Below are positions 37,879 to 38,709 of a stretch of DNA of 64,000 nucleotides, piece after piece; within the stretch, counting starts at the first letter, position 1, and the number at the start of each line of letters is the position of its first letter. Origin of the DNA: Thermodesulfovibrionales bacterium (GTDB taxonomy: Bacteria > Nitrospirota > Thermodesulfovibrionia > Thermodesulfovibrionales > SM23-35); NCBI GenBank assembly GCA_031082155.1, contig JAVHLL010000001.1:89058-153057 (forward strand), given 5' to 3'. Made by a program: the position numbers and the translations under genes. Below the pieces are notes generated by a model. The model did no database searches. It saw only the letters and a list, made by a program, of their open reading frames with translations, and had not been told where the DNA came from.

Positions 37879-37941
37879 CGTTTGTCCATAAATGCGATTT
37901 TCTCACCGCAATTAAACAGAAAGGAGAGGCACCCAACACAA

Positions 37942-38709
37942 ATGAAAAGAAATATCGTTTTATCAATCCTGGCGATCGTTGTGCTGTTCTCTGTACAAAC
38001 CTGCTTTGCCCAGACCGCTGGAGAAATTGATGGCATGAAAAAAGACATCAATGCCCTGAAAGAAGGGCAGCAGGCGATGCAGAAGGAACTGGCGGAGATA
38101 AAGAGTCTTTTAAAGCAAAAAGCTGCTCCGGCTGAATTCAAAGAGATGATTATCAATGTCGGGGACGACCCTTCAAAAGGTGACAAAAAAGCTAAGCTTG
38201 TACTCATTGAATTTTCGGATTATCAATGACCCTTCTGTTCACGACACGTCCGTGAGACGGTCTCACAAATAAAGAAGGAATATATAGATACAGGCAAGAT
38301 CAGATATTATTTCCTCGATTTCCCCCTCAATTTCCACAAACTGGCCTTTAAGGCTGCAGAGGCTGCCGAATGCGCAGGTGAACAGGGAAAATTCTGGGAG
38401 ATGCACGAGAAACTTTTTGAAAACCAGAAAGCCCTGAACCCGGAAGATCTGGTGAAGTATGCAGAATCATTGAGCCTCAATATGGATGAATTCAAGAAAT
38501 GCCTGGACAGTGGAAAACATGCGGATGGGATAAAGAAAGACATAGCAGAAGGGCAAAAGTCTGGTGTTACCGGGACACCGAGTTCTCTCCTGGGCTGGAT
38601 TGAACCGGATGGCAAGACAGTCAAGGCAGTGAAGATCGTGAAGGGCGCTCAGCCATATCAGAAATTCAAGGAAGAGATAGAGGACCTTTTGTCCGGGAAG
38701 AAAAAATAG
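37942..38709 (+). CDS. secreted DsbA-family thiol oxidoreductase, probable selenoprotein (UPFC)
   Basis: Reading through an in-frame TGA at 38227-38229 gives one 255-residue protein: signal peptide (VLSILAIVVLFSVQTCFA), a coiled coil, then the thioredoxin fold FSDYQ-U-PFCSRHVRE, with the TGA exactly at the first Cys of the expected CPFC site (Sec96, Cys99), and the cis-Pro loop GVTGTPSS. No other stop interrupts the frame down to 38709. A hairpin candidate for SECIS lies at 38252-38266. DsbA-like selenoproteins are known in anaerobic bacteria. A pseudogene or sequencing error is less likely because the TGA is at the one position where Sec makes sense. Confidence 0.85.
38252..38266 (+). other. 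candidate bacterial SECIS stem-loop
   Basis: GTGAGA-CGG-TCTCAC forms a perfect 6-bp stem with a small G-containing loop, 22 bases after the TGA at 38227-38229. The distance and GG in the loop resemble the fdhF type, although a bulged U is not seen. Confidence 0.5.

Follow-up and report, generated by a model that had tools for sequence, protein, structure and literature searches.

DsbA-like proteins with selenocysteine (Sec) at the first position of the active-site motif, i.e., UxxC, were reported in 2005 from nine Sargasso Sea sequences (PMC1088965) and in 2006 from bacteria including Anaeromyxobacter, Desulfovibrio and Desulfotomaculum (PMC1794560). A 2026 review lists such a family as “DsbA-like protein form 1”, with the domain PF01323, and, in its passage on function, describes it together with many others as largely uncharacterised with respect to biological function (PMC13188914). 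As far as these accounts describe it, the known family shares with the protein considered here the DSBA domain, Sec at position one of UxxC and widespread Cys homologues, while the latter differs by its UPFC motif combined with a predicted N-terminal helical stalk, by its occurrence in the order Thermodesulfovibrionales, and by its placement in a phylogenetic tree among Cys proteins, apart from the common UPHC selenoproteins of that order. It is a fresh addition to an established family, found in a lineage rich in such genes. In the literature searched, one paper linking Thermodesulfovibrio with selenoproteins was found, which deals with prokaryotes of Mount Everest and the Mariana Trench; searches on DsbA-like selenoproteins and on Nitrospirae yielded mostly general accounts of selenoproteomes.

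With regard to structure, the AlphaFold2 model of the protein is of the DsbA type (mean pLDDT of 93.7), its best solved neighbours being Wolbachia DsbA1, Corynebacterium DsbA/TsdA and Bacillus BdbD, with ScsC also matched. BdbD of Bacillus subtilis and DsbA/TsdA of Corynebacterium diphtheriae are among the best profile matches to solved structures (4pwo, 4.9e-41; 3eu3, 1.3e-38), and BdbD superposes on the model at an rmsd of 2.1, but both possess a Cys active site where Sec is predicted here. The partner of BdbD, namely BdbC, is a homologue of DsbB, and a DsbB-type partner of this kind is absent from the source genome by HMM search. The ScsC-type isomerases (from Proteus mirabilis and Caulobacter, as well as BcfH of Salmonella) are matched by Foldseek at E-values of about 1e-8 to 1e-10 and, as they are described, have an N-terminal helical stalk ahead of the DsbA-like domain, as is predicted here; they nonetheless carry Cys and not Sec, their full-chain superposition is poor (rmsd above 10) and, unlike in ScsC systems, no ScsB-type partner lies beside the gene. 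Proteins of the ScsC type are reported to be trimers that isomerise disulfides (PMC5524982, PMC8900818), and so is Wolbachia DsbA2 (PMC6450060). Among NCBIfam models, the best match is NF041057 (Rcas_1661 thioredoxin-like (seleno)lipoprotein, a UxxC family; E-value of 1e-34, residues 78-247), which the 2026 review names “DsbG-like” where it treats it (PMC13188914); at 120.2 bits against a cut-off of 190, the protein is no member of this family by that model.

Gene architecture across the in-frame TGA

The gene lies in a window of 64,000 nucleotides, i.e., the whole stretch of DNA that was analysed, and its features are as follows.

37922..37929, + strand: putative ribosome-binding site, AGGAGAGG, 12 bases upstream of the ATG, recognised from the sequence.
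37942..38709, + strand: DsbA-like selenoprotein gene, 255 aa followed by TAG, with one TGA read through and translated as U.
37942..38010, + strand: signal-peptide-like residues 1-23, a hydrophobic sequence by inspection, with cleavage guessed after CFA; helix 2-19 in the model.
38014..38115, + strand: long helix of residues 25-58, a probable coiled-coil stalk (DSSP of the model, heptads by eye).
38164..38679, + strand: domain of DSBA/thioredoxin fold, residues 75-246 (Pfam; Foldseek matches to BdbD, Wolbachia DsbA1 and Corynebacterium DsbA/TsdA).
38227..38229, + strand: in-frame TGA, selenocysteine 96 at position one of UPFC; invariant alignment column 96.
38236..38238, + strand: Cys99, the resolving Cys of UxxC, without variation across all 40 alignment rows.
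38243..38262, + strand: candidate SECIS hairpin from RNA folding, identical in sequence in the congener, weak by itself.
38575..38580, + strand: Thr212-Pro213, cis-Pro loop opposite the active site, with P213 invariant and T212 in at least 90% of rows; cis geometry inferred from the family.

The frame opens with ATG at 37942, passes the TGA at 38227-38229 as residue 96 and closes with TAG at 38707-38709. A mechanical listing of open reading frames splits it into pieces of 115 aa (up to the TGA) and 102 aa (from 38401), as a preliminary description of the locus had expected of a standard annotation, which would thus give fragments of 95 to 115 aa and of 102 aa and miss the whole redox protein. 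That the two halves form one DsbA-like protein, likewise proposed there, is borne out by two Pfam matches spanning the TGA, namely PF13462 (Thioredoxin_4; residues 75-215, E-value of 3.7e-30) and PF01323 (DSBA; residues 88-246, E-value of 2e-16, 60.8 bits against a cut-off of 25.6), by the signal-peptide-like N-terminus and by the invariant P213; the 159 sense codons downstream of the TGA are homologous along their full length. In an alignment of 40 rows, hand-picked from the homologues used for the tree and also serving as the basis of the AlphaFold2 model, column 96 holds Cys throughout the 40 relatives, TGA being counted as Cys, and Pro97, Cys99, His155 and Pro213 are invariant besides. The TGA, correctly placed by the preliminary description at the first Cys of the expected CPFC and in frame, coincides with a column that otherwise never departs from Cys, and is hence not there by chance. 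The gene is very probably an intact selenoprotein gene rather than a broken one, and we hold with high confidence that it encodes an exported DsbA-like selenoprotein; this confidence applies to the selenoprotein claim, the reductase or isomerase role considered below being an evenly balanced matter.

Scanning the window for frames joined across a TGA, with a length filter, returned 12 candidates, of which the frame at 37942-38709 alone was convincing, the other 11 being judged by eye alone. TGA is an ordinary stop as well, ending 19 of the 41 long non-overlapping open reading frames of the window; an alternative code with TGA as a sense codon throughout was rejected on that count.

The N-terminal stalk is a candidate suggested by helix 25-58 of the monomer model and by heptads identified by eye, where hydrophobic positions are three or four residues apart (I29, M32, I36, L39, Q43, M46, L50, I53 and L57); within the 40-row alignment, a heptad-like pattern is similar in L078 and L041. 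The order of the neighbourhood, namely glyS, the DsbA-like gene and then an MFS, a tsaB-like and a radical SAM gene (names given by our reading of the proteins), is kept in the congener G001. Among the neighbouring open reading frames, no dedicated partner gene was found adjoining the DsbA-like gene.

Redox direction and candidate partners

In the mechanism proposed here, the ribosome would decode the UGA at 38227 as Sec with tRNA-Sec(UCA), SelA, SelD and probably the selA-linked SelB, insertion being guided by the hairpin just 3' of the UGA. The mature protein would consist of an N-terminal coiled-coil helix and a DSBA domain, with the redox centre Sec96-Pro-Phe-Cys99 near cis-Pro213; outside the cytoplasm, Sec96 would attack disulfides or sulfenic acids of its substrates, leaving Cys99 to resolve the mixed selenylsulfide. 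In this scheme, we infer Sec insertion, the SelB that serves it, export, the oligomer, the reducing direction and the partner.

As for the direction, the chances appear about even that the protein acts as an exported coiled-coil selenol reductase or isomerase rather than forming disulfides as an oxidase. This role is favoured because the genome is without recognisable DsbB or VKOR but with carriers of the CcdA/DsbD type. HMM searches of the source genome (G000) gave no match to DsbB (PF02600) or VKOR (PF07884), models which match 6 and 3, respectively, of 14 control genomes, and neither protein was found by HMM in any of the three genomes of the subfamily, i.e., G000, G001 and G008. Two DsbD_TM proteins are present in the source genome, one of the size of CcdA and the other a rhodanese-DsbD fusion with two TGA codons, belonging to the TsoB selenoprotein family (826 bits against a cut-off of 805).

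The TsoB gene is located at L106:958-2790, - strand (G000:C52), with its TGA codons at UDGLTU, and would be split by automated annotation. TsoB was considered as a dedicated partner of the DsbA-like protein, a proposal weakened by its distribution; at a threshold of 1e-100, it is present in 11 of the 176 genomes of the order, including G000, and was not found in G001 (91% complete) or G008, so that it is not a fixed partner.

Somewhat unlikely, in our view, is a Sec-containing classical oxidase of the DsbA type, reoxidised by an oxidase that the HMMs miss, which would rival the selenoprotein reading in direction only. The nearest solved folds are indeed DsbA and BdbD, and several proteins of the DsbA/BdbD type are oxidases. 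Within the order, VKOR is above the cut-off in 17 of 176 genomes, i.e., in 15 of the 59 that encode a DsbA homologue versus 2 of the 117 that do not (DsbB above the cut-off in 3 of 176), a concentration suggesting that the UPHC relatives may be oxidases. Against the oxidase direction stand the lack of DsbB and VKOR by HMM in the three genomes of the subfamily and the chemistry of Sec, which normally makes redox centres more reducing. The same applies to the solved relatives ScsC and Wolbachia DsbA2, described as trimeric isomerases (PMC5524982, PMC8900818, PMC6450060). As such, “DsbA-like”, the term chosen in the preliminary description, is apt as a family name, but a function as DsbA-type oxidase is unsupported, no DsbB or VKOR having been found in the genome by HMM search.

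Returning to the reductase or isomerase role, a more specific proposal, unlikely as a whole, is that of a selenium version of the ScsC-type stalked isomerase, which, in an anaerobe lacking DsbB and VKOR, would be oligomeric and extracytoplasmic and would be recharged by carriers of the CcdA/DsbD type including the double-Sec TsoB, with Sec gained within a Cys clade (or lost in G008) independently of the UPHC selenoproteins. In any event, G000 and G001 on the one hand and G008 on the other hand provide a clean Sec/Cys pair within one bacterial family, on which the benefit of Sec to an exported thiol protein could be studied where no oxidase that forms disulfides is known.

Distribution of TGA and Cys codons at the site

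The closest named relative of the protein comes from a Thermodesulfovibrionales bacterium (73%), and the stretch recurs in a genome of the same genus, G001, so that the lineage very probably belongs to Thermodesulfovibrionales of the Nitrospirota. G001, a genome of the same genus and the one congener carrying the gene (loci L077 and L040), has kept TGA at the equivalent codon. The two proteins share 188 of 255 residues (26% differ) and, among 184 degenerate codons for identical residues, 66 differ synonymously (64% unchanged); from the TGA onward, however, 39 of 39 bases are identical, a run unmatched in length elsewhere in the gene, and all 12 codons following the TGA are unchanged (hypergeometric P of 0.004). 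The region of the candidate hairpin is thereby identical in G001, and constraint at the RNA level after the TGA is better argued from this identity than from the hairpin itself.

The UPFC Sec form was seen in two genomes of one genus only, and G008, a relative from the same family with 63% identity, has TGT at the site (CPFC). A scan of public genome contigs retrieved 37 relative loci, of which 36 have TGT or TGC and one, the congener locus L040, has TGA; the Cys homologues that the preliminary description had advised seeking do exist. Across the order, a homologue at an E-value of 1e-20 is found in 59 of 176 genomes, corresponding to 62 rows, 60 of them containing a TGA; where the locus was read out (30 of the 62 rows), TGA stands exactly at the site in 28 cases and TGT in two. 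These 28 loci belong mostly to a separate UPHC clade.

It is highly improbable that the gene is a pseudogene or that TGA stands there in place of TGC or TGT through a fault in sequencing or assembly. A single base separates TGA from either Cys codon, and an extra TGA in the congener, at the position equivalent to Trp219, resembles a gene in decay; yet the congener preserves this TGA, along with all of the 39 bases counted from it, despite 66 synonymous codon differences, the 159 downstream codons are open and conserved, TGA recurs at the site in 28 of the 30 loci read in the order, and the Sec machinery is present.

This second in-frame TGA of the congener gene (L077, L040) stands where the window has TGG, and the sequence downstream of it is conserved up to the same TAG. 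It could stem from decay of that gene or from misassembly, or could mark a further recoded site, for Sec or otherwise.

For the selenoprotein, the origin of Sec was considered in a tree of 53 rows. Thirteen of 66 homologues were dropped from it as short, multi-domain or distant (L056, L057, L062, L063, L065-L068, L071 and L073-L076), and L040 was left out, its compared stretch being identical to that of L077. The window gene and that of G001 group first with the Cys protein of G008 (100/98) and next with further Cys proteins, with the common UPHC/UPYC selenoproteins of the order forming groups apart. The notion that the Sec DsbAs of the order all belong to a single family was rejected by this tree. 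The Sec label requires three changes, and not one of 200 bootstrap trees unites it in a single clade (the bootstrap being unsettled); by starred branches, the state at the site changed at least twice. Either Sec was gained at the catalytic Cys in the window clade or it was lost in G008; the latter would fit with G008 still folding a hairpin at the same place. The second and commoner type of DsbA-like selenoprotein, of about 200 aa and with UPHC, is widespread in the order (e.g., L083-L105).

Candidate decoding signal and selenocysteine machinery

The best hairpin after the UGA spans nucleotides 17-36, counted from the U of UGA, with 7 bp, a bulge and -6.4 kcal/mol. It is made up of GAC, a bulged A, CGUC, the loop CGUGA, GACG and GUC (3 bp plus 4 bp), with the loop starting at base 25 and G at loop position two. 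With its bulge in the stem and GU in the loop, it resembles the element of Escherichia coli fdhF. The SECIS-like hairpin announced in the preliminary description corresponds to this bulged hairpin of 7 bp, but an equally good one occurs at 9.1% of 1500 in-frame coding sites sampled in the window, and no match to a SECIS family of Rfam was found in 38180-38330 at E-values up to 10 (chance matches to plastid psbA and osmY were returned). The initial fold of nucleotides 1-54 is within chance (z of -1.0), and synonymous variants are as stable in 3.6% of cases for nucleotides 13-39 and in 22% for nucleotides 4-42. In G008, the Cys relative, the hairpin lies in the same place and folds as well, and within the source genome selD1 and the second UGA of TsoB show stronger hairpins than the DsbA-like gene. 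Judged from sequence folding, the candidate SECIS is plausibly compatible with Sec insertion and weak by itself.

Among the UPHC relatives, a helix of 6 bp (nucleotides 17-22 with 26-31, loop GUC) is supported in a test on 19 of 26 TGA loci, seven close copies being left out. In this helix, 83% of the cells are paired, a value as high in none of 500 shuffles, and the covariation score is reached by one of 500 shuffles, while the number of pairs changed on both sides is reached by 105 of 500 and is not significant; rows L079 and L080 fold differently from the others. The helix is not directly transferable to the window gene, the loop of which begins two bases later.

The machinery for Sec, which the preliminary description had named as a check, is complete with respect to selA, selB, selD and tRNA-Sec(UCA) in the source genome (2.65 Mb in 56 contigs, 100% complete by tool estimate). 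It includes (i) selA at C36:20930-22279 (608 bits), (ii) two SelB genes above the cut-off, at C36:16343-18187 and C35:116653-118506, (iii) a tRNA-Sec with anticodon UCA at C42:13867-13960 (73.4 bits), and (iv) two selD genes above the cut-off, each with one in-frame TGA in a GUASK or GUAAK motif. The SelB of C35 is 62% identical to the selA-linked SelB of C36.

Least probable of all is a reading of the UGA other than as Sec, e.g., as Cys via the second SelB (62% identical to the first) and the SelC-shaped tRNA of Cys-type features that immediately precedes it on C35. selC* tRNA-Cys genes, some with UCA, are known in Nitrospirae (PMC7609411), but the anticodon of the C35 tRNA is GCA, which pairs with UGC and UGU and not with UGA, and UCA belongs to the canonical tRNA-Sec of C42.

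That SelC-shaped tRNA, at L024:6050-6142, - strand (G000:C35), has a Cys-like 3' end and directly precedes the second SelB (L024:4100-6091, - strand). Weaker SelC-like loci, as read in this genome and its relatives, number 11 (L024, L029, L030 and L032-L039), with GCA in 10 (in L038 by eye) and UCA in L029 alone, and adjoin SelB in several genomes (G012, G014, G018 and G005). By analogy, the SelC-like tRNA with GCA and the second SelB would fit a selC* tRNA-Cys with selB*; such tRNA genes, some with a UCA anticodon, are described for Nitrospirae (PMC7609411). Beside the second SelB, an apparent selenium gene cluster extends over L024:6360-11516 (G000:C35), comprising a 2-hydroxyacyl-CoA dehydratase-like gene with its activator, a Sec-containing selD, a SirA/YedF-like gene and a cysteine desulfurase-like gene (names by reading).

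In the congener, the short contig G001:C279 carries, at L029:1785-3832, the last part of an fdhA-like gene together with an fdhB-like one, a tRNA-Sec with anticodon UCA and SelB (names by reading). This SelB is only 32% identical to the other SelBs, and the contig is either foreign to the bin or represents a Sec cassette acquired by transfer.
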